39,181 bases of DNA. Source: Treponema sp. (GTDB taxonomy: Bacteria > Spirochaetota > Spirochaetia > Treponematales > Treponemataceae). Of this stretch, positions 4,460-25,011 are shown in pieces (position 1 is the stretch's first letter; each line of letters begins with the position of its first letter). Position numbers and translations under genes: made by a program. The stretch covers positions 1 through 39,181 of the forward strand of contig JAILPY010000144.1 of NCBI GenBank assembly GCA_024699235.1, in the 5' to 3' direction. The notes under the pieces are model-generated. The model was not told the DNA's origin and did not search any database. It saw only the letters and a program-made list of their open reading frames with translations.

Positions 4460-5314
4460 TTATCTGAGCAATGCAAGTACGCTTTCAGACTGATTGTTAG
4501 CCTGTGCAAGCATAGCAACGCCAGACTGTGTAAGGATTGAATTCTTTGTGTATTCAACCATTTCTGATGCCATATCTGTATCGCGGATTGTTGATTCTGC
4601 ACTCTGAAGGTTCTCTGCTGCAATGCCGAGACCATAAGATGTTTCTTCTAAGCGATTCTGATAAGCACCCAAATCTGCACGCTGCTTATTTACAATTTTC
4701 AAAGCTGCATCAATTGTGCCGATGGCAACGTTTGCTGCTTCTGGAGTAGAAATGCTAATCTTTTCATCAGTACCCTGAACACCTCTCAAGCCAAGAGCCT
4801 GTGCTGTCATAGTTCCTACATAAGCAGTTACACGCTGATCCATGTTTGCACCAATATGGAAAGTCATCTCCTGATTAGAAACAGACTCACGAGCAAAACG
4901 TCCTGTCAACATATTCATGCCGTTGAATTGTGCCTGTGAAGCGATGCGGTCTACTTCTGCAACAAGCTGAGATACCTCAACCTGAATCTGCAAGCGGTCT
5001 TCTTCTGTATAGATGCCGTTAGCAGACTGAATAGAAAGTTCACGCACTCTCTGCAAGATATCTTCAGTTTCCTGAAGGTATCCTTCTGTTGTCTGAATGA
5101 AAGAAATTCCGTTCTGTGTGTTGCGGTTAGCCTGATTCAAGCCACGAATCTGAGCTCTCATTTTCTCAGATACTGCAAGACCAGAAGCGTCATCGCCAGC
5201 ACGGTTAATTTTCATTCCAGAACTGAGCTTTGAAATATTGCCCATCAATTCAGCATTGTTAAGTCCCAATGAGCGGTTTGCAAACATTGAACTCATGTTG
5301 TGATTAATTACCAT
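4460..5314 (-). CDS. flaB: Flagellin FlaB (core filament protein), second copy in the cluster
   Basis: A 284-residue class B flagellin. It has the conserved N-terminal D0/D1 helices ([17 protein letters not shown], then [20 protein letters not shown]) and the conserved C-terminal helix ([20 protein letters not shown], ending SVLALLR). The variable middle is very short, as in spirochaete core flagellins, which form the periplasmic filament. The ATG at 5314 is chosen because GGAGGAC lies about 7 bases upstream and it matches the start of the neighbouring paralogue. An upstream ATG at 5341 would add nine residues that do not fit the family. The gene resembles the flaB at 5634-6494 closely along its length. 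Confidence 0.96.
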
Positions 5315-5633
5315 AATAAGTGTCCTCCATGTTCTATACATAAAGCATCATGCCTTACGCCTGATTGTACGAGCATCTGCCGTTTTGCGCCCCGGCAGAA
5401 GATTTAGACTCTTACAGCAGGAATTGTTATTATTCATGATAATAACAATCTATACTGTTACAAACAGCATGAAGAATACTATTTCAAAGAACAATATTCC
5501 GTCTAAATACGGAATAAAATGCTTTTGCAAAAACGGATTGATTTAAAGTTAGAAAAGTTGAAGTGCATTTTATCAGTCCGCGCAATAAGCGTAAGGAGTC
5601 TTTAAGACCCCTTACACCTATTATTATACTACA
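5315..5633 (-). other. Structured gap between the two flagellin genes
   Basis: No gene is seen in these 319 bases. In minus-strand order it holds four inverted repeats. 5591-5615 is a 10-bp stem allowing one G-U pair, 18 bases after the first flagellin stop. 5495-5516 is an 8-bp perfect stem (tattccgt/acggaata). 5423-5449 is an 11-bp perfect stem (attgttattat/ataataacaat, 5-base loop). 5376-5399 is a GC-rich 7-bp stem (tctgccg/cggcaga). None has a convincing T-run. The region probably contains the 3' end of one flagellin mRNA and the promoter and leader of the next. I could not assign a promoter with confidence. Confidence 0.6.
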
Positions 5634-6494
5634 TTATCTCAACAAAGACAATACTGTCTGTGACTGAGAATTAGCCTGAGCCAGCATAGCTGTTCCTGCC
5701 TGAGTAAGAACCTGGTTCTTTGTAAATTCAACCATCTGAGCAGCCATATCTGTATCACGGATTCTTGATTCAGAAGCCTGAGTATTCTCAGCAGCTACGT
5801 TTAATCCTTCTACAGTCTTCTCGAGACGGTTCTGATAAGCACCAAGGTCTGCACGCTGCTTGTTGATTCTCTTGAGAGATTCATCAAGTGTGCCGATTGC
5901 GCGGTTGGCATCATCCGGTGTAGCAAGTGTCAAAAGTTCTTCTGTTCCAACGTTGCGGATTCCGAGAGCTGATGCTGTCATTGTTCCGATGTAAACCTGT
6001 ATGCGCTGATCCATGTTTGCACCAATATGGAGCCACATAGAACCAGTTACGTTGTTTTCACCTGTTGGGCGAGCGTAGCGTCCTGTGAGCATATTCAAGC
6101 CATTGAACTGAGCTGCAGATGCAATGCGGTCTACTTCAGCGATAAGTGAACTAACTTCAACCTGAATCATTTCGCGGTCTTCTTCTGTGTAGATGCCGTT
6201 GCTTGACTGAACTGCAAGTTCGCGGATGCGCTGAATGATATCTTCAGTTTCCTGCAAGTATCCTTCTGTTGTCTGAATGAAGCTGATTCCGTCAGTTGCG
6301 TTTCTTGATGCACGGTTGAGACCGCGAATCTGTGCACGCATTTTTTCAGAAACAGCAAGACCAGAAGCGTCATCACCAGCACGGTTAATCTTCATACCAG
6401 AAGAAAGTTTTTCCATATCCTTCTGAAGTGCTACGTTTGTTACTCCCAAAGAACGATTTGAGAACATTGCTGACATGTTGTGGTTGATTACCAT
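5634..6494 (-). CDS. flaB: Flagellin FlaB (core filament protein), first copy in the cluster
   Basis: A 286-residue class B flagellin with the same layout as its downstream paralogue. It has the N-terminal D0/D1 helices ([33 protein letters not shown]), a short middle containing [20 protein letters not shown], and the C-terminal D1/D0 helix ending SQTVLSLLR. It is an export substrate that assembles into the periplasmic flagellar filament. A GGAGGAAAC ribosome site precedes the ATG. Two tandem flaB genes upstream of fliD match the flaB1-flaB3-fliD region of Treponema pallidum as I recall it; which paralogue is which cannot be settled here. A roughly 200-base leader with a long inverted repeat lies upstream. 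Confidence 0.96.
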
Positions 6495-11082: not shown

Positions 11083-11847
11083 TTATTCCTGTATCAGCAC
11101 AGGAATTTTACTTATTCCCGTAACAGGATTCTTTAGTTCTGTTCCATTCCTTTCTGAGGCGCGGACAGCTATGTAATAGCGGGTGTTTGCCGTAATATTC
11201 CGCGGAAGATGAAATTCCAGGGTCTTGTCAGTATTCCTTGTAATGAAACTGTCTGGAACTTTGATCCAGTCGTCTTCATTTTTAGAAGGATTGCCGTCAT
11301 CAAGCAAAGGAACGAAAAATATGCCTCCTAAATCTCCTGCAACTTTTAGCTTCTTTCCTAGAATCCTTGCACTGAAAGTTGCTTTTAATAAACCATTGTC
11401 AGTTTCCATTTTAGTCATAGGATTTTCTATTTGGCTTATTTGAGGAGATGAATCTGTTACGGCAGTTACAGTTGCTGTCATTCCCTTAAGTCTTTCCCTG
11501 AGTCTTTCATTTACAGAGAAGCGGGCTTCAAATCCTGTTACTGACTCTGATTCTGGAGTCAGTGACTGAACGCTGCTAATTGGTGCAATGTACAGCTTGC
11601 ATATTTCTAGAATGTCAACTGAAAAGCCCAGTTCTGCCTGTTCAAGAATCTCTTTTTTTAGAAGAGCCATGGCATGTCCAACCTGATATCTGTCAATTCC
11701 CTGATTGTGTGCAGAAACAAGGTCTAGGATCTGGTCTGTAGAAACAGTTCTTCTTGGCACATGTGCAATATAGGTATTTTCCTTAAAGCGACATGGGGTT
11801 AGCGTTACGGCGAAATTTGTTTCGCGCTTTGTGTCTATGTTTGTCAT
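11083..11847 (-). CDS. HU-like DNA-binding domain protein with DUF4469-type C-terminus
   Basis: The 254-residue protein has two parts. Residues about 10-115 follow the pattern of the divergent HU/IHF-like domains found in Bacteroidetes and treponemes: an N-terminal strand set (AVTLTPCRFKENTYIAHVP), RTVSTDQILDLVSAHNQGID, then the helix GHAMALLKKEILEQAELGFS. Residues about 140-254 resemble the beta-sandwich DUF4469 domain, with paired strands ending TRYYIAVRASERNGTELKNP. The combination suggests a nucleoid-associated or structural DNA-binding protein, but its biochemistry is not established. The ribosome site AAGGAG is clear and sits inside a small CCTTA/TAAGG repeat. It is divergent from the plus-strand operon at 12222. 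Confidence 0.75.
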   Translation of the reverse strand: MTNIDTKRETNFAVTLTPCRFKENTYIAHVPRRTVSTDQILDLVSAHNQGIDRYQVGHAMALLKKEILEQAELGFSVDILEICKLYIAPISSVQSLTPESESVTGFEARFSVNERLRERLKGMTATVTAVTDSSPQISQIENPMTKMETDNGLLKATFSARILGKKLKVAGDLGGIFFVPLLDDGNPSKNEDDWIKVPDSFITRNTDKTLEFHLPRNITANTRYYIAVRASERNGTELKNPVTGISKIPVLIQE

Positions 11848-12104
11848 AAATACTCCTTAGGCTAAGGGGTTTGTCCCTGCCTGGATATAAGCTAACATAT
11901 TTTATAGGCCCTAAAATGTAGATTATGCTTGATGGCACGTTTTTTTTCTGACAAATTTTTCTGCCATGTGTCTGGAGTCAGCCGCTGTTCTTTATTGGAA
12001 TTTAGGCTCAATTTGTTACTGGAAATGACATGCATTTCTTTATTAGAATTTAGGTATGATTCTTTTCTAGAAGTGGCTGATGATTCTAGCCATATAAAAA
12101 GGTA

Positions 12105-12134
12105 TTGGTATTTTATATTCTGTTGGTATATAAT
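12105..12134 (+). promoter_or_regulatory. Promoter of the six-gene operon
   Basis: TTGGTA (12105-12110), an 18-base spacer and a perfect TATAAT (12129-12134) form a sigma-70-type promoter. The expected start is near 12141, giving a leader of about 80 bases. Confidence 0.7.
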
Positions 12135-12150
12135 AGAATAAATATTATAT

Positions 12151-12184
12151 CAGTTTTAGATTCAAGAATCTGATTTTGAAACTG
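12151..12184 (+). promoter_or_regulatory. Leader hairpin upstream of the PurF-like gene
   Basis: Nested inverted repeats: outer cagttt (12151-12156) with aaactg (12179-12184), inner agattc (12159-12164) with gaatct (12167-12172). It lies in the expected 5' leader. The sequence does not match the purine riboswitch core that I know. It may be an attenuator-like element or an operator. Confidence 0.45.
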
Positions 12185-12221
12185 GCATTTATTTTATCCT
12201 TTTCTGCATTAGGAGAACTCT

Positions 12222-13655
12222 ATGGGCGGTATATTTGGCGTTGCCTCTAAAGGTGACTGTTCACTTGATTTATTCTTTGGCGTTGACTATCATTCTCATC
12301 TTGGTACGCGGCGTGGAGGCCTTGCAGTTTACCAGGAAGAAAATAAGTTTAAACGTGCAATCCACAATATACAGAATTCCCCGTTCCGTACAAAATTTGA
12401 AAATGACATTACAGAAATGAAAGGCCGGCTTGGAGTTGGCTGCATTTCAGATTATGAGCCTCAGCCTCTTTTGGCCCGTTCTCATTTAGGTCGCTTTGCC
12501 CTGACTACGGTTGGAATTGTTACTAATAAGGAAGAGATTGCAAAAGAGTTAATGGATAAAGGAATATCTTTCCTTGAGATGTCTGGCGGAGAAATTAATC
12601 AGACTGAGCTTATTCTTGCTATGATTAACAGCCAGCCTACTATTGTAAAGGGCATTCAGTATGTTCAGTCCCGCATAAAAGGATCAATTACAATGCTTGT
12701 TGCTACTCCTGACGGCATTTTTGGAGCTCGCGACAAAATGGGTCGCACCCCTTTGCAGATTGGCAAGAAAGTAAATGATGACGGTTCTGTACAGGCTTGT
12801 TGCTTGAGCTTTGAAAGTTTTGCCTATATGAATTTGGGCTACAAGCATGAGCATGAACTCGGTCCTTCAGAAATTGTATTTGTGACAGATTCTGGCTATG
12901 AAATTCTTCAGGAACCTCAGAAAGAAATGAAGATATGTACTTTCCTTTGGATTTACTACGGCTATCCTACTGCCTGTTATGAAGGAGTTAACGTTGAATC
13001 TATGAGGTATAACTGTGGAAAGTACCTTGCAAAGAGGGATAAGGTTGCAGATATCCATCCAGATTGCGCTGCAGGGGTTCCTGATTCAGGCACAGCACAT
13101 GCCGTCGGATATGCAAATGAAGCTGGAATTCCTTTTACTAGGCCTTTTATAAAATATACTCCTACATGGCCACGTTCCTTTATGCCTGTAAATCAAGAGC
13201 AGAGAAACCTTATTGCCCACATGAAGCTTATTCCTGTGCCGCAGCTTATAAAGGATAAGAGCATTCTTTTGATAGATGACTCGATTGTACGTGGCACTCA
13301 GTTGCGAGAAACTACGGATTTTCTGTATGAAAGCGGTGCAAAGGAAGTTCACGTCCGGCCTGCATGTCCTCCAATAATGTTTGGATGTAAGTATCTGAAT
13401 TTCAGCCGTTCTAAAAGCGAAATGGATTTAATTGCCCGCCGGGTAGTAAAGCAGTTTGAAGGTGATAATGTCAGTGAAGAGACTCTTGCCAAGTACTGTA
13501 ATCCAGATACTCCAGAATATGAAAAAATGCAGGAAGAAATACGCCGGCAGCTGCATTTTACGACTCTTCGCTTTCATAGGCTTGATGACATGCTTGATTC
13601 TACGGGGCTTGATCATTGCAAGCTATGTACGTACTGCTGGAACGGGAAGGAATAA
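12222..13655 (+). CDS. PurF-like phosphoribosyltransferase with a degenerate glutaminase domain
   Basis: The 477 residues align with glutamine PRPP amidotransferase, which normally makes phosphoribosylamine in the first step of purine synthesis. The phosphoribosyltransferase half looks intact: GVPDSG (285-290), the PRPP loop LLIDDSIVRGTQL (349-361), and Cys 239, 389, 466 and 469/472, placed like the iron-sulfur ligands of the Bacillus enzyme. The Ntn glutaminase half has lost its active site: the nucleophile Cys after Met is Gly (MGGIFGV), the HNGN stretch is TTVGI (95-99), the Arg of the GHxRYST loop is missing, and the SDTE Asp is Gln (NQTE). The flexible loop reads YTPTWPRSFMP. It may use free ammonia or another amine. 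I recall similar MGG-starting paralogues in Bacteroidetes. It heads a six-gene operon and has the site AGGAGAA. Confidence 0.85.
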   Translation: MGGIFGVASKGDCSLDLFFGVDYHSHLGTRRGGLAVYQEENKFKRAIHNIQNSPFRTKFENDITEMKGRLGVGCISDYEPQPLLARSHLGRFALTTVGIVTNKEEIAKELMDKGISFLEMSGGEINQTELILAMINSQPTIVKGIQYVQSRIKGSITMLVATPDGIFGARDKMGRTPLQIGKKVNDDGSVQACCLSFESFAYMNLGYKHEHELGPSEIVFVTDSGYEILQEPQKEMKICTFLWIYYGYPTACYEGVNVESMRYNCGKYLAKRDKVADIHPDCAAGVPDSGTAHAVGYANEAGIPFTRPFIKYTPTWPRSFMPVNQEQRNLIAHMKLIPVPQLIKDKSILLIDDSIVRGTQLRETTDFLYESGAKEVHVRPACPPIMFGCKYLNFSRSKSEMDLIARRVVKQFEGDNVSEETLAKYCNPDTPEYEKMQEEIRRQLHFTTLRFHRLDDMLDSTGLDHCKLCTYCWNGKE

Positions 13656-14734
13656 TGGCATTTTGTACAATACATAAGAATGCAATAGAACAGAATTATA
13701 GGCAAATGAGTATGCTGTGTAAGAAAAATAATGCACAGCTGAATGTAGTGTCTAAATTCTGTCTTAGCAATCCGCTTGTCATTTCGTTTCTTAATGGCAT
13801 AAAAGACTGTCCCTGTACTGTTATTTCAGACAGTAATATGGAAAATTTTGCACGCCTTGAAGAATCCCTTGCATCAAGGCTTACTAAATGTGTCATAAAG
13901 ACTCGGCTTTCTGACATAAAAAAAATTCCATCCATAAAAAAATCCTACAGGCCAGACAGGCTTTTTGTTTCTGATATGGCAATGCTTAATGCCATTGCTG
14001 AACTTCCAGGCGATATGAGGCCGGAAATTGTCCTTATAGCTGAAACTGGCGATCTTAAAGACGGTTTTTTGCTTAATGATATAATGTTGATTTCAGAAAT
14101 GTTGCCGATACTTAACATAATAGGGGTATCTGCTAATTTTTCATGCCTTTCTGGAATTTTACCAGATATTGATACTGTTTGCAAACTTTATGAAACAGCT
14201 GCCTTCATTCAGAAAAAGCGCAGCCTGGAAAAACCTTTTCTTTCTGTAGGAGGAACTGTTATTCATGGATTGGCCGGTACAGGTTCTTTAGATGGACTTG
14301 TGCAGGAAATAAGGAGCGGAGAAGGAATCTTTTTTGGTTATGATTCTTCCGGGGGAACTGATCTTGCTGGTTTTTCCAAAGAGACAATTTCTCTTGATGG
14401 AGAAGTTCTTGAAGTTGCTGAAAAAGATTTTGCAATTAGAGAGGGGCATCAGTCTGGATTTACGGCAACTGGTAATATTTCGGACAGTAATTTTGAAAAG
14501 GGATTGCGAAAAAGGGCGGTTCTTGATTTCGGCATCCTTGCAGCTTTGCAAAAGGATTTAATTCCTGCTGATAAAGGCGTTGTTCCTGTCGGACAGACTT
14601 TTGATTTTACTGTTGTTGATGTTACAGGTTCTGCAAGAACGTATGCAGCTGGCGAAACCGTTTCTTTTTATACAAATTATGCATCCGCATCGTTTGCTAT
14701 GATGAATAGGTATATTCCATGTAATCTGGAATAG
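13655..14734 (+). CDS. Fold-type III PLP enzyme, alanine/ornithine racemase family
   Basis: The 359 residues match the family that includes clostridial ornithine racemase. The PLP lysine is K34 in VVSKF. The phosphate and substrate region shows ETGDLKDG (130-137), GVSANFSCLSGILP (157-170), and IRSGEGIFFG (219-228), where the Arg would contact the PLP ring. The C-terminal part VGQTFDFTVVDV follows the family pattern ending in a buried Asp. Predicted role: interconversion of L and D forms of an amino acid; lysine or ornithine are plausible, but the substrate is not proven. The ATG overlaps the last base of the upstream TAA (TAATG) behind GGAAGGA, so translation is coupled. A start 13 codons earlier is rejected for lack of a ribosome site. 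Confidence 0.82.
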   Translation: MAFCTIHKNAIEQNYRQMSMLCKKNNAQLNVVSKFCLSNPLVISFLNGIKDCPCTVISDSNMENFARLEESLASRLTKCVIKTRLSDIKKIPSIKKSYRPDRLFVSDMAMLNAIAELPGDMRPEIVLIAETGDLKDGFLLNDIMLISEMLPILNIIGVSANFSCLSGILPDIDTVCKLYETAAFIQKKRSLEKPFLSVGGTVIHGLAGTGSLDGLVQEIRSGEGIFFGYDSSGGTDLAGFSKETISLDGEVLEVAEKDFAIREGHQSGFTATGNISDSNFEKGLRKRAVLDFGILAALQKDLIPADKGVVPVGQTFDFTVVDVTGSARTYAAGETVSFYTNYASASFAMMNRYIPCNLE

Positions 14735-14755
14735 AATATTATTTAATATAAGTGG

Positions 14756-17164
14756 ATGGTTAATGTGAAGAATAGGCGCACTTTTTTTACTGGCATTTCT
14801 GTTTTTGCTGTCATTCTTGCCTTGGGACTTGTTGTTAACGGAGCTCTCGGAATATCAGGCTTTGAAGGCGTGTATAGGGATGCTTTAATATCTCGTTACA
14901 ATATAGATGGAAAATACATAAAAAGCAGGATAGAATCTAACCTTAATCTTGGAAAGAAGCTTTATCTTCTGGAAAACACTGTAAGGCCTCTGTTTTCTCA
15001 GGTTTTAGATTCCTCTGCAGGCATTGAGCACATTTATGTTTCTGATGAGCATAATGAAATTCTGTATTCTTCCAGAAGCGTTATAAGTCAGCAGAAAATA
15101 CCTTTTAATTATTATGAAGGTGAAAAAGAACCTTCAGAATCAAATAGTCCCTACAGCCTAAAATTTCTAGACAGTACTTTTATATGCATTCCTCTGTATT
15201 CAGCAGATTCATTTGCAGGTTCCTTGCTTATGGAATTTTCGCAGAAATATGTTGCAAGCTACATTCAGCAGTATTCCAAGTTTTCTTTGAAGACGGGAAT
15301 GATTCTATTCCTTGTAGCCTTAGTTTTATATATTATTGGATGCCTAGCCTTTAGTGAAAGTGAGAGCTTTGAAAATTTTTTTACAGTTGTCCTGCTGCTT
15401 ACTTCTCAAATAATTTTTTCAGTCTTTAATTACAACAGCTATAATAATGCCATTTCTTCGATTTTTAATGCGAACATGGAGCGTTTAGGCCATTCTGTTT
15501 CTACGGCTATTCAGGATCCTCTGAAAATGGAAGAAACGTTTGATAATATGAAAGATGTTGACGTTTACCTGGCAGAGCGCATATCTGGTAATAATCAATG
15601 TTCTGGCATCTTCATAATAGATAAAGATCAAAAAATACTCTACAGGGCTTTTAATGAAACAAGGGGGGATTCTTCAGAAGTCTTGGATTTGACTGATTCT
15701 GATATTACAGTTGTTGATCTTACTGTACCAGATTCTCCATATTATTATCGTCTTGCCCTCCGGATAAACCGTCCTTTGATTAATAGTGTTTTGCGTGACA
15801 TGGCTTTGGATTCTGGCACTATTATTATAGTAGCCCTTATATTCGCATTTATATTAAAGAGCTTTATAATCCTGATTCAGAATAGGAAAGATATCCTTGT
15901 AATTCCAAAGGAAATGACTCCTTCTCAGTCTAGGACAGCACTTCGCCTTATAGAAATAAGTACTTTTGTATTTATGTTTGCAGCATATGAAACCCTTTCC
16001 TTTATACCTTTGTATATTCAGGATGTGTTCAGGTCTTCAGGAAGCTATTTTATGGGCTTGTCTTCAGAAACCGTTGAAAGCCTTCCTGTTACTACCTATA
16101 TGATAGGCATTATGATTGCAATGTTCTTTACTCTTTTCGTCATGAAACAAATTTCCGTTCGTAAGAGATATGTAATTATGTCTGCTATTTTTATTGCAGG
16201 CTCCTTCCTGACTATTTTTTCTAAAGATATTGTACTGTTTTCAATTTCAAGGTTGATTTGCGGCTTTGGTTTCGGAGGAATCCTATTGAGCACTTCGTCT
16301 CTGGTAATTGAATATACGAGTTCAAGGACACGAAGTGCAGGTTTTGGCACTAATGCAGCAGCATTTGCATCTGCTTCTATTTCTTCAATACCAATCGGAG
16401 GCGTTGTAGTTAATAAATTTGGATATGAAGCAGGCATCTTAGTTTCAATATTTTTTGCATTTGCATTCTTACTGTTTGCAATGTGCTGCCTGCCTGAAAA
16501 GAAGAGACTTCGAATAAAGAAGAACGGTAAGGTTGTAAAGTCTCGTAATGTTACTTTAAAAGATTTTTTCAGGGTGTTTTTCTCAAGGCATGTGCTTACG
16601 TATATCTTGTTCATAAACATTCCTTTCCAGATTATTTACTGGGGACTTTTCCAGTTCCTGCTGCCGCTTTATATGAGCGATACGCTCAAGCTTTCTCAGG
16701 GAAACATAGGACGCATACTTGGTATTTTCAGCGTTATAAGCCTGTTTGCAGCTTCTGTCAGCCGGCTTTCTGATAAGGCAAGGAATGACAAGCTTCTTAT
16801 TTCACTTGGAGCATGCTGTGCTGGAATTGCAATGATTGCATTTGGATATGGGGCAGGGGGATTTATAATGTTTATTGTAATAATGGTTGCAATGGGCATT
16901 GACAATCTATTTATAGACTCTATTGAAGAAGTCTATCTTGAGTCTGGACATATAAAACATGTATCCGAAGAAAATCTTTTGCAGACTTATAAGGTTATTG
17001 AAAAAGTTCTTTCTGTGTTTATACCTTCTGTTACAAGCATTATTATTGTTAATTCTGGCTTTAATAAAAGTCTGATGGTAATTGGTATTTATTCAGCTAT
17101 AGGTGCTGTACTGTTCTTATTGTTCGGTAAAAACGGAAGATGGGAGAAAAAACATGAAAAATAG
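14756..17164 (+). CDS. MFS transporter fused to two extracytoplasmic sensor-like domains
   Basis: An 802-residue membrane protein of unusual build. One membrane segment (about 11-32) leads to an extracytoplasmic region (33-178) with Cache-like strands (GIEHIYVSDEHNEILYSS). Two membrane segments (180-199, 206-226) and a second such region (227-352, with GIFIIDKDQKILYRAF) follow. After another membrane segment (353-374) comes a full major facilitator domain (about 395-795), with the loop after the second MFS helix ending in VRKRY and typical Gly-rich helices (ICGFGFGGILLSTSS). Sensing may gate transport, or the sensor may report transport state. The ribosome site before ATG 14756 is poor; GTG at 14765 is an alternative start with AAGTGG in front. 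The transported compound is unknown. Confidence 0.8.
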   Translation: MVNVKNRRTFFTGISVFAVILALGLVVNGALGISGFEGVYRDALISRYNIDGKYIKSRIESNLNLGKKLYLLENTVRPLFSQVLDSSAGIEHIYVSDEHNEILYSSRSVISQQKIPFNYYEGEKEPSESNSPYSLKFLDSTFICIPLYSADSFAGSLLMEFSQKYVASYIQQYSKFSLKTGMILFLVALVLYIIGCLAFSESESFENFFTVVLLLTSQIIFSVFNYNSYNNAISSIFNANMERLGHSVSTAIQDPLKMEETFDNMKDVDVYLAERISGNNQCSGIFIIDKDQKILYRAFNETRGDSSEVLDLTDSDITVVDLTVPDSPYYYRLALRINRPLINSVLRDMALDSGTIIIVALIFAFILKSFIILIQNRKDILVIPKEMTPSQSRTALRLIEISTFVFMFAAYETLSFIPLYIQDVFRSSGSYFMGLSSETVESLPVTTYMIGIMIAMFFTLFVMKQISVRKRYVIMSAIFIAGSFLTIFSKDIVLFSISRLICGFGFGGILLSTSSLVIEYTSSRTRSAGFGTNAAAFASASISSIPIGGVVVNKFGYEAGILVSIFFAFAFLLFAMCCLPEKKRLRIKKNGKVVKSRNVTLKDFFRVFFSRHVLTYILFINIPFQIIYWGLFQFLLPLYMSDTLKLSQGNIGRILGIFSVISLFAASVSRLSDKARNDKLLISLGACCAGIAMIAFGYGAGGFIMFIVIMVAMGIDNLFIDSIEEVYLESGHIKHVSEENLLQTYKVIEKVLSVFIPSVTSIIIVNSGFNKSLMVIGIYSAIGAVLFLLFGKNGRWEKKHEK

Positions 17165-19526
17165 CTATAGGCGTCATCTGCTTCTTTTTACATGCATTCT
17201 TATTTTTTCTATTCTTTTTTGCGGCTGTTCTGCAGGACTCTCTTCTTCAAACTATTGGAAAGGCGTTGAAAAAGAGTCTGAATGGGTTGAAAAAAAATAT
17301 AAGCCTTTTAAACTTTCCGCAATTGAAAATTCTTCTGAAAACTCTCAAGACTTATCTCAGCAGCCTGTTCCCGCTTTCTTAAAAAATGAAGGTCAAAAAT
17401 TTAGGATAGGCATTGTAATATCAGGTGATTACTGGGAATTTTTTGAAAATCTTAAGGGGCTAATTGAAGGTTTTTCCAGCATTGGATGGGCGAATCGAAT
17501 ATCTGTACCTTCATCTTTCAGTCACTGTGATGAATTGATTTCTTGGCTCAATGGAAAAAAATACAGTGATTACATTGAATTTGTTCCAGAATATTTTGTT
17601 AATGTTAACTGGGGTGATAACACTGATGAGTTAATTGAGAAATATTTTACCTATAGGCCTAGTGTCGATGTTGTCATTACTTATGGCGGAAAGGCTTCAA
17701 AAACATTTTATGACATGAAGTCTTATCCTATTCCTGTGTTTTCAGACGCAATTACGGACTGTTCTGAAGCAGGCGTTACTCTTTCTGATGAAGATTCTGG
17801 AAAGGATTTCTTTTCCAATAAGATAGATCCTGAGATTTTTAAGCAGCAGATACGATTGTTCCATGATATGGTTGGCTTTAAAAACCTTGGAATTATTTAT
17901 GGAAATAATGCTGATGGAATTCTTTATGGTGCTGTCAATGATGTAGAAGCTGTTGCAAGGGAGAGGTATTTTGATATTGTCCGTGATACAAATGTAAAGG
18001 AGTTTATGGATGATGATACTCCTGATTTGTATCTGGCGGCTTTACGCCGTATCGTGGATAAAGTAGATGCTGTATATATAGGTGCATCTACAGCTGTTAC
18101 AGAATATAATATTATGCCTCAGATTGTAGAGATTCTGAACAAATCAAAAAAGCCTTCTTTCTCCCTTGAAGGAACGATCCGCGTTAAAGACGGAATACTT
18201 TTCAGTTTGTCTTCAAGTGGTCTTACAAGGTCTGGCATCTGGATGGCTACTAAAATTTCTCATGCCTTTTCAGGGGAGTCACCAAGGTCATTAAGCCAGC
18301 ATTTTGAGAATATGTATTCGGTTGCTGTAAACCTTGATACTGCCAAGAAAATTGGATTTAAAATGCCTCTTGATTTGCTTGTAAACTCTGACGAATTCTA
18401 CATAGACGTTAACGGATCTATTGTTCAATACGGCAGTGATATGCAATCAGCAGGTTCTCGCCAGTCTTTAAGTCCAAAGAAAAGAAATGACAGTAAAAAA
18501 TATAAAATTGCAGTGGTAGAAAGCGGAGACGGTAACTATTGGGAGTTTACAGAGCACCTGAAAGGTATTATAAACGGATTAAGGACTAACAGATGGATAA
18601 AGCAGAACCTTGACTTATCAAACGCCCATACTGTTAATGATATTTATCAAGTTCTTGCAAATGAGGATTACAGTGATTATTTAGAGTTTGTTCCGGAATA
18701 TTTTGTTAAGCTAGGGTGGGGCAGTCACTCTGACCGCATTAATATGCTGTTTGCAGATGAAAAACCTGACATTGATTTGATTATTGGATTGGGGGGTGTG
18801 GCAGGAAAGATTCTGTCAAAACAGGAAAAATATAAAATCCCAGTTCTGCTTGATGCCATTACAGATCCTGTTGGTTCTGGAATTGTATATTCTGTTTCTG
18901 ATTCTGGTAAATCATTCCTTACATGCCGTGTTGACCAGACTCAATATCAGAGACAAATTCAGCTGTTTAAAGAATTTACAGGCTTTAAGAAACTGGGCAT
19001 TGTTTATGGAGACGATGAATACGGCCGCTTGTACGGTGCTGTAGGCGATGTGGAACTGATGTCCCTGAAACTTAATTTTGATATTGTAAGGAATACCGAT
19101 GTAAAGGAATCTGTTGCAAAAGATACTGTAGATTTATATCTGAAAGCACTTAAAGATGTGTGTTCTCAGTGTGATGCAGTATATATTGGTGCATCAACAG
19201 CTGTGACGGAATATGATATTATGCCTCAGATTGTAAATATTATTCAGGAAGCAGGAATTCCATCATTTGCCCTGGAAGGTGATATTAGGGTAAAAAAAGG
19301 AATACTTATGGGCGTTTCCTCTTTGGAATCTGAAAAAATTGGATTGTATAATGCAGATAAAATAGCTTCAATATTTTATGGAACAACACCTCGCCTTTTA
19401 AAGCAGGAATTTGTTGGAGTTCCTTCTATAGCACTTAATATTGATATGGCAGATAAAATAGGTATGGACATACCTTTGTCAACGCTTGCAACAGTTGACC
19501 AGATTTATGGAGGACCGTTCAATTGA
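17154..19526 (+). CDS. Lipoprotein with two tandem TrpX/ABC_sub_bind-type ligand-binding domains
   Basis: The 790-residue protein starts with a lipoprotein signal (hydrophobic run, then LFCGC; Cys 25 is the likely lipidation site, a relaxed spirochaete lipobox). Two homologous units of about 320 residues follow. Copied landmarks are YWEFFENLKG and YWEFTEHLKG, YSDYIEFVPEYF and YSDYLEFVPEYF, KNLGIIYGNN and KKLGIVYGDD, and VYIGASTAVTEY in both. Each is a periplasmic-binding fold of the ABC transporter substrate-binding family that includes TrpX-like proteins. No permease or ATPase gene is present, so the domains may hand ligand to the sensor-transporter or the cyclase. The ATG at 17154 overlaps the upstream stop by 11 bases and follows GGGAG. 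Confidence 0.88.
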   Translation: MKNSYRRHLLLFTCILIFSILFCGCSAGLSSSNYWKGVEKESEWVEKKYKPFKLSAIENSSENSQDLSQQPVPAFLKNEGQKFRIGIVISGDYWEFFENLKGLIEGFSSIGWANRISVPSSFSHCDELISWLNGKKYSDYIEFVPEYFVNVNWGDNTDELIEKYFTYRPSVDVVITYGGKASKTFYDMKSYPIPVFSDAITDCSEAGVTLSDEDSGKDFFSNKIDPEIFKQQIRLFHDMVGFKNLGIIYGNNADGILYGAVNDVEAVARERYFDIVRDTNVKEFMDDDTPDLYLAALRRIVDKVDAVYIGASTAVTEYNIMPQIVEILNKSKKPSFSLEGTIRVKDGILFSLSSSGLTRSGIWMATKISHAFSGESPRSLSQHFENMYSVAVNLDTAKKIGFKMPLDLLVNSDEFYIDVNGSIVQYGSDMQSAGSRQSLSPKKRNDSKKYKIAVVESGDGNYWEFTEHLKGIINGLRTNRWIKQNLDLSNAHTVNDIYQVLANEDYSDYLEFVPEYFVKLGWGSHSDRINMLFADEKPDIDLIIGLGGVAGKILSKQEKYKIPVLLDAITDPVGSGIVYSVSDSGKSFLTCRVDQTQYQRQIQLFKEFTGFKKLGIVYGDDEYGRLYGAVGDVELMSLKLNFDIVRNTDVKESVAKDTVDLYLKALKDVCSQCDAVYIGASTAVTEYDIMPQIVNIIQEAGIPSFALEGDIRVKKGILMGVSSLESEKIGLYNADKIASIFYGTTPRLLKQEFVGVPSIALNIDMADKIGMDIPLSTLATVDQIYGGPFN

Positions 19527-21130
19527 TTTATGAATTAAAAGGTACTGGATTCTGGCTTGATGAAGCATGTGACAAACTTCTTGAATATCTAAAAGATTTA
19601 GATCCTGACAGCAGGTCTATAATATGTGCTGCAGGCATGACGCCTTCTGCTCCCATTCATTTTGGCATTTTACGCGAAGTTGCAATAAGTTCATTTATTA
19701 CAGATGAGCTTGTTCGCCGTCGGCGAAAAGCCAGTCTTGTGTATTATTGGGATGATTATGATCATTTCTGTAAGATTCCTTATTATACGACTAAAGATGC
19801 CGTTAGTGAACATATTGGAAAGACTCTTCGCGATGTCCCTGATTTTAATGGAAGCTATAATTCTTACGGCGAACACTATATGCATGAATTTGAAGAATGC
19901 GTTCATAAATGCGGTTTTTTCCCGAATTATAACTATCAGTCCAGAATGTATAAGTTTGGCCTTTATGCAGATAGAATAAGGGCTGCACTTAATAAGCGAA
20001 AAGAAATTTTTGATATTGTCAGTCGTTCTTCTGGAATGTCTGAGGACGAGGCTTCTGTAAAGCGTGACAGTTATTATCCTCTGGAAGTTTATTGTGACAA
20101 ATGCGGTAAGGATTCTACAGTAACCACATCCTGGAATAGTGAAAAAGATTGTATTGAATATACATGTAAGAATTGCGGCCATAAAGGCTCTTATATTATA
20201 GGAAAAGACTTCAGGGGAAAACTTGCTTGGAAAGTTAACTGGGCTACAAGATGGAGCGATGACTGTGTCTGTTATGAAAGTTCTGGTGAAAATCAATTGA
20301 CAGATACTGGCAGTTATTCTGTTTCAAGTAGGGTTGCTACTGAAATTTTTGGAGGGCATGTCCCTTTTTCTTTGCTGTATCGTTTTATCGGCATGCCAGG
20401 CATTGCTAAAGTTTCAAGGGCTCAGGGAGAAAAGACTCTTGCAACTAGGCTGACAGGTGTTCTTGAACCGTGTATCGTCAGATGGCTTTTGTTAAAAAAT
20501 CCTCCTAATAAAGCGTTTTCTGTAGATATAGAGGAAGGCATATTCCGTATATATCACGAATGGGATGCTTTTGTTGACAAAATAGAATCAGGAGAGTGTA
20601 CTGATTTGGATAGGCGCATATATAATATATCGATGGAAGGAGTTGAATTTTCTAAGTTCCGCATTCCTTTCAGAACAATTATTATAGCACTTGGAATATG
20701 TGATGGTAATAAAAAAACTGCTGCCCAGCAAATGTTAAAAATGACTGGATTTAATGGGACTGCAGATGAACTTTTAGTTGCCGCTCATTCAAGAATAAAT
20801 GCAGCCTATTACTGGCTTTATAAATGCGGTCATGTGGAAAATCAGCTGTCTTTACGCGCTTCATTTAATGACTCCGCTTGGCAGGAACTTTCTGATGCAT
20901 GTAAAAATGCTGTTATGCAGGTTTGCCGTAATCTGGATTCTTTTACAAATGAAGATGATGCAAAGAAAATTTTGTATGATATTGCTTCTCAGACAGGTGC
21001 AGATAAAGATTTGTTTCATGCAATTTATATGCTGTGCCTTGGAAAGGAACGAGGACCTAAATTGACGACATTATTATGTCTTACCCAAAAAGAAAAGCTT
21101 CTGGCATTGCTAAAAGGAGATAATAAATGA
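19523..21130 (+). CDS. Class I lysyl-tRNA synthetase-like protein with altered active-site motifs
   Basis: The 535 residues cover the full LysRS1 architecture: a Rossmann domain with AAGMTPSAPIHFGILRE (HIGH-type, 36-52) and YYWDDYD (74-80), a zinc ribbon with Cys 191, 194, 215 and 218, the connection RW near 244, and a C-terminal helical anticodon-binding domain ending GPKLTTLL. Compared with authentic spirochaete LysRS1, the KMSKS-type loop reads KVSRAQG (296-302) rather than KISSSSG. The conserved His pair after the AG of the lysine pocket is also absent (SSGENQL). These changes suggest a paralogue with a different amino acid or without tRNA charging, though it could still be active. It starts with TTG overlapping the previous stop (TTGA), with GGAGGA 8 bases upstream. 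Confidence 0.83.
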   Translation: MIYELKGTGFWLDEACDKLLEYLKDLDPDSRSIICAAGMTPSAPIHFGILREVAISSFITDELVRRRRKASLVYYWDDYDHFCKIPYYTTKDAVSEHIGKTLRDVPDFNGSYNSYGEHYMHEFEECVHKCGFFPNYNYQSRMYKFGLYADRIRAALNKRKEIFDIVSRSSGMSEDEASVKRDSYYPLEVYCDKCGKDSTVTTSWNSEKDCIEYTCKNCGHKGSYIIGKDFRGKLAWKVNWATRWSDDCVCYESSGENQLTDTGSYSVSSRVATEIFGGHVPFSLLYRFIGMPGIAKVSRAQGEKTLATRLTGVLEPCIVRWLLLKNPPNKAFSVDIEEGIFRIYHEWDAFVDKIESGECTDLDRRIYNISMEGVEFSKFRIPFRTIIIALGICDGNKKTAAQQMLKMTGFNGTADELLVAAHSRINAAYYWLYKCGHVENQLSLRASFNDSAWQELSDACKNAVMQVCRNLDSFTNEDDAKKILYDIASQTGADKDLFHAIYMLCLGKERGPKLTTLLCLTQKEKLLALLKGDNK

Positions 21131-23163
21131 CAGATTTGAACGAATCAAACACGATGGTAAGTAAAAAAGAATCTATTAAGAATAGATTACAGAAATATTT
21201 TCTGCTCATTTCTCTATCTATCATTTTTTTGATGAGTATATTTTCTTTAGTCTTTTTCTATAACAGTACTTTGAAGGAAAGCACTTCTGTCATTCGAAAT
21301 AAACTTCTCCTTGCAGATTTATTTATGCAGGATAAAAAAAATGATATTTCCGATTTGGCTAAAAACCTTGCTTCGAATAGGAGCGTTCAGCTTGGCATTG
21401 AACTTGAAAGCAGCATTAAGCTAACGGAATATCTTGATTCTCTTGAACAGAAAAATAACTATAGAATTGCTGTGTTTGATGTTGAAGGAAATCAGCTTAC
21501 AGAAATAAACAGCAGTTTTTCAGGCGAAAGAAATATATTGCAAAAGGCTTTGTCTGGAGAATCTTCTTTGGAACCGTGTTTCATCGAAGATTATAATGTA
21601 AAGTCTCCAGCTTTTGTGGCTTCTTGTCCTGTTTATTATGGAGATGATATAATTGGAGTTGTACTAGTTGAATTTGTCTTTATGGAAAATAAAGATTTTT
21701 TCACCGAACTTGCAAGAAATCTTGATTGTGAACTTGCTATATATTCAGATAATGCTACTGTAGTTTCTACAGGAGAACTTATAATAACCGAACAGCTTTA
21801 TAAAACCGTTGCATATCTTGGCAGGACTTATGAGGATATAAGCCTTAGGTCATCTGGCTTAAATGAATATAAGGCAATAACTGACAGTTTTGAGAATCCA
21901 ATAGCTGTTATTCGCGTTCATATGTCTTCTTATCAATATATCAAGATTTTTATGACAGCAATAATTATTTATATAATTCTGGCTACAATTTTTACTGTAA
22001 TAGTAATTGCTCTTGTCCTTCGTGTTTCTGCAAGCATCTTGAATCCTATAGAATTGCTTCTTAATAATGTAAATATTGTCCGTAATGGGGACTTGAGTCA
22101 CGAGGTTATTCTTCATGTTCAGGATGAAATAGGCCGTCTTGGATATGCATTCAATGAATTAAGGTCTCAGCTCAATGAAAAAATTACGACAATTCAGTCG
22201 ATGAATCAATCTCTTGAAGCTACTGTCCAGGAAAGGACTGCTAGGTTGAATACTCTAAATGACAAAATGAAGCATTATCTTTCTCCTCAGCTGTATGCGT
22301 CAATTTCTGGAGGTGAACGAGATGTGTCTGTTGATAAGCATTACAGAAAAAAACTTACTGTATTTTTCTCTGATGTTGTAAGTTTTACCGCAACAACTGA
22401 GTCTCTTGAAGCAGAAGATTTGTCTACTCTTTTAAATTCTTATCTTGATAATATGGCAGAAATTGCCCAAAAGTATGGCGGAACTATTGATAAATATGTC
22501 GGTGATGCTGTGATGGTTTTCTTTGGAGATCCAGAGTTTACGTCTGATAAAGATCATGCAGTAAGGGCTGTAAAAATGGCTATGGAAATGCAGGAACGTC
22601 TTATTTCATTCCGCGAAGAATGGCGTTCTCGTGGCGTAGAAAATCCTTTCCATGTACGAATGGGCATTAATACCGGTTACTGTACTATTGGAAACTTTGG
22701 TTCCGAAACAAAGATGGACTACACTATAATAGGCAATAATGTTAACCTTGCTGCCCGCTTTGAAGCTGCTGCGGAACCAGATTCTATTTTGATGAGTCCT
22801 GAAACGTACATGCTTGTAAAAGATGAAATTGATTGTGTGGTTGGCGGAGAGTTCTCTTTAAAGGGTGTTTCTGGAATAATAAAGGCTTATACGCCTGTAA
22901 AGATAAAGAAGTCAAAATCAAACGTAAATTTTGCTAAAGTTACTAACAGGGGCGAAGTGCTTTTCCCAGAAAAACCTGTAGACCTAAAGCTTCTTTCTCC
23001 ATCAGAGCGTAAGCAGCTTATACTGTCTGTAAAAAATGCTTTCCATGACATAGTGGAAACAAGCAAAGATATAGCAGATAAGAAAGCTTCTAAGCCAAAG
23101 ATAGTAAGAAAACTGGACGGAGATGAAGGAAAGACAAAAAAAATGCCTGAGAATAAAAAATAA
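21127..23163 (+). CDS. Membrane sensor adenylate cyclase (class III)
   Basis: The 678-residue protein makes cAMP from ATP. Layout: membrane segment about 25-46; extracytoplasmic sensor of about 225 residues with Cache-like patches (RIAVFDVEGNQLTEI); membrane segment about 274-298; HAMP linker (299-352); coiled coil (353-385); class III catalytic domain (about 405-580); and a Lys-rich tail. The catalytic residues are all visible: metal-binding Asp 416 (FFSDVVSFT) and Asp 460 (KYVGDAVMVFFGD), adenine-selecting Lys 456 and Asp 531 (KMDYTIIG), and transition-state Asn 540 and Arg 544 (NLAAR). That set favours ATP over GTP. The ATG overlaps the upstream stop by 4 bases (ATGA) after AAGGAG. Its ligand is probably linked to the lipoprotein and transporter encoded upstream. 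Confidence 0.93.
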   Translation: MTDLNESNTMVSKKESIKNRLQKYFLLISLSIIFLMSIFSLVFFYNSTLKESTSVIRNKLLLADLFMQDKKNDISDLAKNLASNRSVQLGIELESSIKLTEYLDSLEQKNNYRIAVFDVEGNQLTEINSSFSGERNILQKALSGESSLEPCFIEDYNVKSPAFVASCPVYYGDDIIGVVLVEFVFMENKDFFTELARNLDCELAIYSDNATVVSTGELIITEQLYKTVAYLGRTYEDISLRSSGLNEYKAITDSFENPIAVIRVHMSSYQYIKIFMTAIIIYIILATIFTVIVIALVLRVSASILNPIELLLNNVNIVRNGDLSHEVILHVQDEIGRLGYAFNELRSQLNEKITTIQSMNQSLEATVQERTARLNTLNDKMKHYLSPQLYASISGGERDVSVDKHYRKKLTVFFSDVVSFTATTESLEAEDLSTLLNSYLDNMAEIAQKYGGTIDKYVGDAVMVFFGDPEFTSDKDHAVRAVKMAMEMQERLISFREEWRSRGVENPFHVRMGINTGYCTIGNFGSETKMDYTIIGNNVNLAARFEAAAEPDSILMSPETYMLVKDEIDCVVGGEFSLKGVSGIIKAYTPVKIKKSKSNVNFAKVTNRGEVLFPEKPVDLKLLSPSERKQLILSVKNAFHDIVETSKDIADKKASKPKIVRKLDGDEGKTKKMPENKK

Positions 23164-24938: not shown

Positions 24939-25011
24939 TGAGCTATTGCAGATTCGAACTGCAGACCCACGCCTTAAAAGGGCGTTGCTCTACCTACTGA
25001 GCTAATAGCCC
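24939..25011 (-). tRNA. tRNA-Lys (anticodon UUU)
   Basis: The minus strand folds into a complete cloverleaf of 73 bases: acceptor GGGCTAT with ATAGCTC (one G-U pair) and discriminator A; D arm with AGCTCAGTAGGTAGAGC; anticodon arm ACGCC-CTTTTAA-GGCGT giving anticodon TTT; T arm TGCAG-TTCGAAT-CTGCA. CCA is not encoded. A consensus-like promoter lies upstream and a terminator downstream, so it is a single-gene unit. Confidence 0.97.

Follow-up and report, generated by a model that had tools for sequence, protein, structure and literature searches.

We found that a rumen Treponema-like bacterium encodes, in one chain, two outward-facing domains that sequence comparison supports as Cache-type (sCache_3-like) sensor domains, homologous to each other, followed by an apparently complete MFS transporter domain. 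Some 20 further proteins with this fusion were detected in Spirochaetota, Desulfovibrionales, Alphaproteobacteria and Vibrio. We give about even chances to the reading that Cache-MFS is a sensor-regulated transporter, which would export an amino-acid derivative under the control of an outside ligand. The gene belongs to a cassette of five closely spaced or overlapping genes, for a racemase, Cache-MFS, a tandem ABC_sub_bind lipoprotein, a LysRS paralog and an adenylate cyclase, which is located in the window (the whole stretch of DNA analysed, 39,181 nucleotides) as follows:

13655..14734, + strand: PLP fold-III amino-acid racemase, Orr-like (NCBIfam racem_Orr, 3.3e-37, below the model cut-off; start chosen by homolog alignment)
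14756..17164, + strand: Cache-Cache-MFS fusion protein, 802 aa (ATG at 14756, stop at 17162-17164; frame open and complete)
14786..14851, + strand: TM helix 1, residues ~11-32 (hydropathy)
14852..15295, + strand: D1, predicted extracytoplasmic sCache-type domain, residues 33-180 (dCache_1 fragment, hhalign, low-confidence model)
15296..15433, + strand: TM helices 2 and 3 with a short cytoplasmic turn, residues ~181-226 (hydropathy)
15434..15820, + strand: D2, predicted extracytoplasmic sCache-type domain and probable duplicate of D1, residues 227-355 (D1 profile, hhalign)
15821..15943, + strand: TM helix 4 and cytoplasmic linker, residues ~356-396 (hydropathy)
15944..17140, + strand: MFS domain, DHA/SLC18-like (PF07690; PDB profile search; motif-B arginine R499)
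17154..19526, + strand: tandem ABC_sub_bind (TrpX-like) periplasmic binding protein (PF04392, 4.9e-27; TrpX model, 1.8e-28)
19523..21130, + strand: class I LysRS paralog with altered signature motifs (PF01921, 8.2e-82)
21127..23163, + strand: membrane receptor-type adenylate/guanylate cyclase with HAMP (PF00211, 2.9e-29; HAMP, 1.7e-6)

The 802-aa protein is ordered TM-D1-TM-TM-D2-TM, then MFS. Hydropathy averaged over 16 homologs places the pre-MFS TM segments at residues ~13-31, 181-199, 206-224 and 356-374, with soluble stretches of ~149 (32-180) and ~131 residues (225-355) between them, and the MFS helices start at about residue 403. These boundaries agree within a few residues with the original prediction of four membrane segments and two periplasmic domains (33-178 and 227-352) ahead of an MFS domain. 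The short N-terminus is positively charged and should lie inside, so that the D1 and D2 stretches would face outward and the ~28-residue pre-MFS linker inward, the latter in agreement with the requirement of the MFS fold. As is characteristic of Cache domains, D1 and D2 are outward and bounded by TM helices in the hydropathy analysis. A full-length model, built from three sequences, reached a pLDDT of only 37. A chance frame or a misassembly was ruled out by the recurrence of uninterrupted fusion frames in independent assemblies and in plasmids of unrelated bacteria.

The sensor-like character that had been proposed for the two N-terminal domains was borne out by profile comparison. In hhalign, D1 and D2 matched each other at 97.7% and matched sCache receptors at 98.8% and 97.7%, respectively, the receptor set having been picked by the query profile and hence being favoured. 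The independently chosen dCache chemoreceptors of the same genome matched D1 at 91.5% and D2 at only 6.6%, and D2 is thus assigned through its matches to D1 and to the sCache receptors; hmmsearch with the D1 and D2 profiles found no match among these chemoreceptors, which were matched by profile-profile comparison only. Decoy alignments of binding proteins, racemases, synthetases and MFS proteins gave at most 0.4% against D1 and D2 in hhalign. Among relatives, the D1 profile recovered D2 of the same chains, down to 1.6e-12, which suggests that the D1-D2 arrangement probably arose by duplication of a TM-domain-TM unit. A bridge to known receptors was provided by the N-terminal profile, which matched a SpoIIE receptor-phosphatase of another spirochaete (7.8e-10) over a region that itself passes the curated sCache_3_2 cut-off; other, weak matches of this profile were mostly to HAMP-bearing chemoreceptors, kinases and SpoIIE phosphatases.

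The original prediction had proposed two checks for these domains. Comparison with Cache families was positive at the profile-profile level, and among relatives the Pfam E-values reached 1.7e-4 for dCache_1 and 4.2e-6 for sCache_3_2, but the direct Pfam scores of the 802-aa protein fell below the cut-offs (dCache_1, 12.7 versus 45; sCache_3_2, 12.4 versus 28.4), D1 matching dCache_1 as an N-terminal fragment with an E-value of 0.0091. Structure prediction for D1 gave Foldseek matches that were nearly all PDC/Cache sensors, including WalK, KinD, DctB, PctA, Tlp3 and CqsR, but from a low-confidence model (pLDDT 48.8) and with E-values no better than 0.01 (0.01-0.2). In a sequence search of the PDB the N-terminal profile had no match. 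The alternative named at the outset, that the N-terminal parts belong to an MFS insertion family lacking a sensor fold, was not borne out, and profile comparison points to Cache.

The transporter part was recognized by PF07690 (MFS_1) at residues 401-715 (E 2.6e-25, 89.5 bits versus a cut-off of 33.4), as predicted, and has 11 hydropathy segments where 12 TM helices are expected of an MFS protein, with region 680-720 counting as one or two depending on the method. Its best solved relatives in a PDB profile search are VMAT2, NorA and EmrB, and multidrug, Cmx and Bcr models match the MFS part in most members. The motif-B arginine (R499) is invariant in 23 divergent members, over which glycine-rich helices and a D/R motif in the C-terminal half are also kept. 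Motif A, which MFS proteins typically but not invariably have between TM2 and TM3, has degenerated in the Treponema group (MKQISVRKRY in the 802-aa protein) and is canonical-like in two Azospirillum relatives, L080 and L084. The antiporter motif C (GxxxGPxxGG) that marks the DHA family is incomplete in the 802-aa protein, which reads SASISSIPIGG; GPAIGG occurs in L080 and L084 only. The closeness to VMAT2, NorA and EmrB, the antiporter models and the invariant arginine favour proton-coupled export. The likeliest role of the MFS part is to export an amino-acid derivative in this way. The degenerate motif A and incomplete motif C make the direction of transport uncertain and mean that transport could be lost.

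We estimated how widespread the fusion is. In 8 of 145 genomes of the family, an N-terminal relative is continuous with an MFS domain in one uninterrupted frame, and about 11 of 393 genomes of the phylum carry Cache-MFS relatives; the predicted rarity of the architecture thus holds for spirochaetes. The fusion was also detected, at 67-89% identity, in two more rumen MAGs: L012, an independently assembled Spirochaetaceae MAG, has the whole architecture, and in L011 it is cut at a contig end. In the proposed survey of spirochaetes, the N-terminal profile picked up full-length relatives from further families and classes within the phylum (G196, G209, G170, G159, G166, G359 and G406), and the relationship was confirmed by aligning 16 proteins (773-839 aa) over their full length. 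The patchy distribution is as expected if the cassette is mobile or frequently lost; the viral contigs searched contained no match.

Cassette content varies with distance. Loci L012-L017 have the identical five genes in identical order, L019 has a shorter, rearranged cassette in which no cyclase was seen, and L018 ends at a contig end, matching binding-protein and LysRS pieces being located on a separate contig of that genome. At L015 (G018, 11343-15326) the binding-protein and LysRS-like frames are broken and the Cache-MFS frame is intact. In distant spirochaetes a D-Ala-D-Ala-ligase-like ATP-grasp enzyme occupies the LysRS slot; the binding protein and Cache-MFS are retained, and the racemase and cyclase mostly so. 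Beside the cassette at L049 lies a 952-aa protein (13207-16065) with a weak TLC-transporter-like region and two cyclic-nucleotide-binding stretches, another possible transporter-sensor fusion.

Outside Spirochaetota, where the distribution is drawn from plasmid records only, the N-terminal profile covered nearly the full length in four MFS proteins from Nitratidesulfovibrio, Azospirillum and Aureimonas (best domain 1.6e-15 to 1.3e-27, at a search size fixed at 5000), and the Vibrio tubiashii protein matched more weakly (1.2e-6). The Nitratidesulfovibrio vulgaris plasmid carries a binding-protein gene and then a 1012-aa MFS protein; Azospirillum plasmids carry a racemase, binding protein, MFS and GNAT, with a cyclase too in one; and the Aureimonas plasmid carries SpoIIE, binding protein, a GCS2-type ligase and MFS. 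On the Vibrio tubiashii plasmid (L083, 4682-9863), a Ddl-like ligase, Cache-MFS and two binding proteins sit within a type VI secretion cluster. At L081, a VgrG-like gene adjoins the Cache-MFS pair. At the edge of a T6SS cluster of Vibrio fluvialis, a periplasmic component of ABC type has been mentioned together with an MFS transporter, neither being studied (PMC5371669); the two are possibly a binding-protein/Cache-MFS pair. A single Cache domain is found in Vibrio THAF190c and Azospirillum pAB510a/TSH58, and a binding-protein gene again adjoins the Azospirillum single-Cache genes. In Azospirillum TSH58 (L084) a HAMP domain lies between Cache and MFS (38.3 bits versus a cut-off of 25, E 1.7e-9), as it does with a weaker score in L080, in the position equivalent to TM4 and the linker (residues ~356-396).

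The most constant neighbour is the binding-protein gene, which adjoins the Cache-MFS gene, mostly overlapping it, in 20 of the 21 loci measured. In the window it overlaps the MFS gene, and its product has an N-terminal signal/lipobox-like sequence. Strong matches to it occurred in exactly the 8 of 145 family genomes that carry Cache-MFS, with none elsewhere at a comparable score. The binding protein may therefore be a specific partner of Cache-MFS. No ABC ATPase (an open reading frame with Walker A and signature motifs) was found in the cassettes, candidates at L047 and L050 being several kb away, and no DctQM or TctAB membrane subunits accompany the binding protein, whose membrane partner is the MFS protein. 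One MFS relative without Cache domains (L082) is also without a binding-protein neighbour, a single suggestive case. In frame 7182-8924 of L084, the binding protein occupies the C-terminal part.

The racemase of L044 scored 8e-67 with racem_Orr, still below the model cut-off. The signature motifs of the LysRS-like protein are altered (HIGN to HFGI, KMSSSKG to KVSRAQG), and its strong matches come from cassette genomes only. It is an extra copy, a canonical LysRS being present on contig C179, and was rejected as the main enzyme of the cell; its role may be amide formation or sensing instead of tRNA charging. The outer domain of the cyclase matched D1 and D2 at 41% at best in hhalign, showing no clear relation. 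PycC models match its catalytic domain, but we rejected an anti-phage Pycsar reading, as such models would pick up most class III cyclases, and the other cassette genes do not agree with this reading. A PurF-like amidophosphoribosyltransferase paralog (12222-13655), far below the model cut-off, overlaps the racemase start with its end and is not conserved in other cassettes. A tRNA gene (24939-25011, minus strand) lies shortly past the cassette, as a possible integration landmark.

Cache modules transmit ligand-induced motion through a TM helix, and HAMP domains relay such motion. We infer the MFS bundle to be its receiver here, and likewise the ligand class, binding-protein contact, gating, transport direction and product. 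The two tandem TM-Cache-TM units would bind an amino-acid-like ligand outside the membrane, directly or via the co-encoded ABC_sub_bind lipoprotein. Binding would move helices through TM4 and the short cytoplasmic linker, in Azospirillum relatives through the HAMP relay, and so set the activity of the MFS bundle. The transporter would then export an amino-acid derivative made by the cassette racemase and amide-forming enzyme, and the co-encoded cyclase would report the same outside signal as cAMP or cGMP. Four unrelated amide-bond-forming enzyme types occupy one slot (LysRS-like, Ddl-like, GNAT and GCS2) next to a racemase gene, suggesting a D-amino-acid amide or dipeptide as substrate or signal. 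The binding protein, the racemase and amide enzyme, the cyclase and the Cache-HAMP-MFS relatives make sensor regulation of the MFS part more credible than the sequence of the protein by itself. The original prediction had likewise put forward a transceptor gated by extracellular ligand; such gating and transceptor signalling are putative. A fuller, quorum-like circuit is a tentative and on balance doubtful extension: the D-amino-acid derivative made by racemase and amide enzyme would be exported by the binding-protein-assisted, Cache-gated MFS under feedback from its outside concentration, with the cyclase reporting inside, in several phyla.

The cassettes could be read differently. If the MFS part were a non-transporting signalling or scaffold module resembling UhpC, it would, with the binding protein, act through protein contact on the cyclase encoded next to it. 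Most cassettes do contain a gene for a cyclase or a SpoIIE receptor, and the degenerate motif A of the Treponema group would suit such a role. We nonetheless hold it to be unlikely: core MFS features persist over the 23 divergent members, and the pair occurs with no cyclase gene annotated beside it in Nitratidesulfovibrio, Vibrio tubiashii and one Azospirillum locus. Comparably improbable is a binding-protein-dependent importer, in which the lipoprotein hands its ligand to the Cache platform or MFS and the racemase and amide enzyme assimilate it. The near-constant binding protein with no ABC ATPase, and cassette enzymes that act on amino acids, speak for import, but exporters are the nearest relatives of the MFS part, and L080 and L084 retain an antiporter motif C. 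That the Cache-like domains sense nothing and serve folding, dimerisation or envelope anchoring would fit the few residues invariant in D1 and D2 across 16 members; tandem Cache domains kept across phyla, the HAMP-containing relatives and gene linkage to receptors point instead to signalling, and we regard this reading as very unlikely.

Several known systems resemble parts of the sensor-regulated exporter. LuxP-LuxQ partners a periplasmic binding protein with an outward Cache-fold receptor; in Cache-MFS the MFS part would replace the kinase, and contact with the binding protein is putative. TRAP and TTT systems combine a binding protein with a secondary transporter without an ATPase, whereas here the transporter is an MFS protein and the binding protein belongs to the ABC_sub_bind family. 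TRAP systems are also covered in PMC9352664. With Cache receptors (chemoreceptors, kinases, cyclases and SpoIIE; PMC4822843), Cache-MFS shares the TM-Cache-TM sCache_3-type input, and in some relatives HAMP, but its output is a transporter; a term search of that founding Cache survey found no mention of transporters. MFS fusions with CBS, CNBD, PAS and UspA domains, usually C-terminal (Willson et al. 2019 as cited in PMC10710835), likewise place an extra domain, proposed to be regulatory, in the MFS chain; in Cache-MFS the added domains are N-terminal, outward, membrane-flanked Cache domains, sometimes with HAMP. In the SLC5-STAC histidine kinases CbrA and CrbS (PMC9100948), transporter and signalling module also share one chain, but in them a kinase is fused to the transporter, and in Cache-MFS the sensor precedes the transporter with no output enzyme in the chain. 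The SLC18/DHA1 H+ antiporters VMAT2 and NorA, the best solved-structure sequence match of the MFS part, are without N-terminal Cache sensors, and motif C is incomplete in Cache-MFS.

A literature search that chiefly covered open-access papers found no description of Cache-MFS, and an earlier mention is possible; it also found no described case of an outward Cache sensor or HAMP relay wired directly to a transporter. The combination of Cache-MFS, binding protein, racemase and cyclase thus appears to be undescribed. Regulated MFS proteins with fused domains are already known, and the apparently new part is the outward Cache/HAMP input. If the gating is real, outside signals could act on transport with neither transcription nor a kinase in between. 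With a nearly constant binding-protein neighbour and no ABC ATPase, Cache-MFS would bring binding-protein-dependent transport into the largest superfamily of secondary transporters. The neighbouring racemase, ligase and cyclase genes suggest a so far unrecognised signal or effector metabolite derived from an amino acid, also within the Vibrio T6SS cluster.

The Azospirillum versions reside in tractable laboratory hosts. Directly upstream of the Cache-HAMP-MFS gene of L084, a stand-alone TM-Cache-like protein with no Pfam match (4937-5899) is encoded, possibly a split sensor partner.
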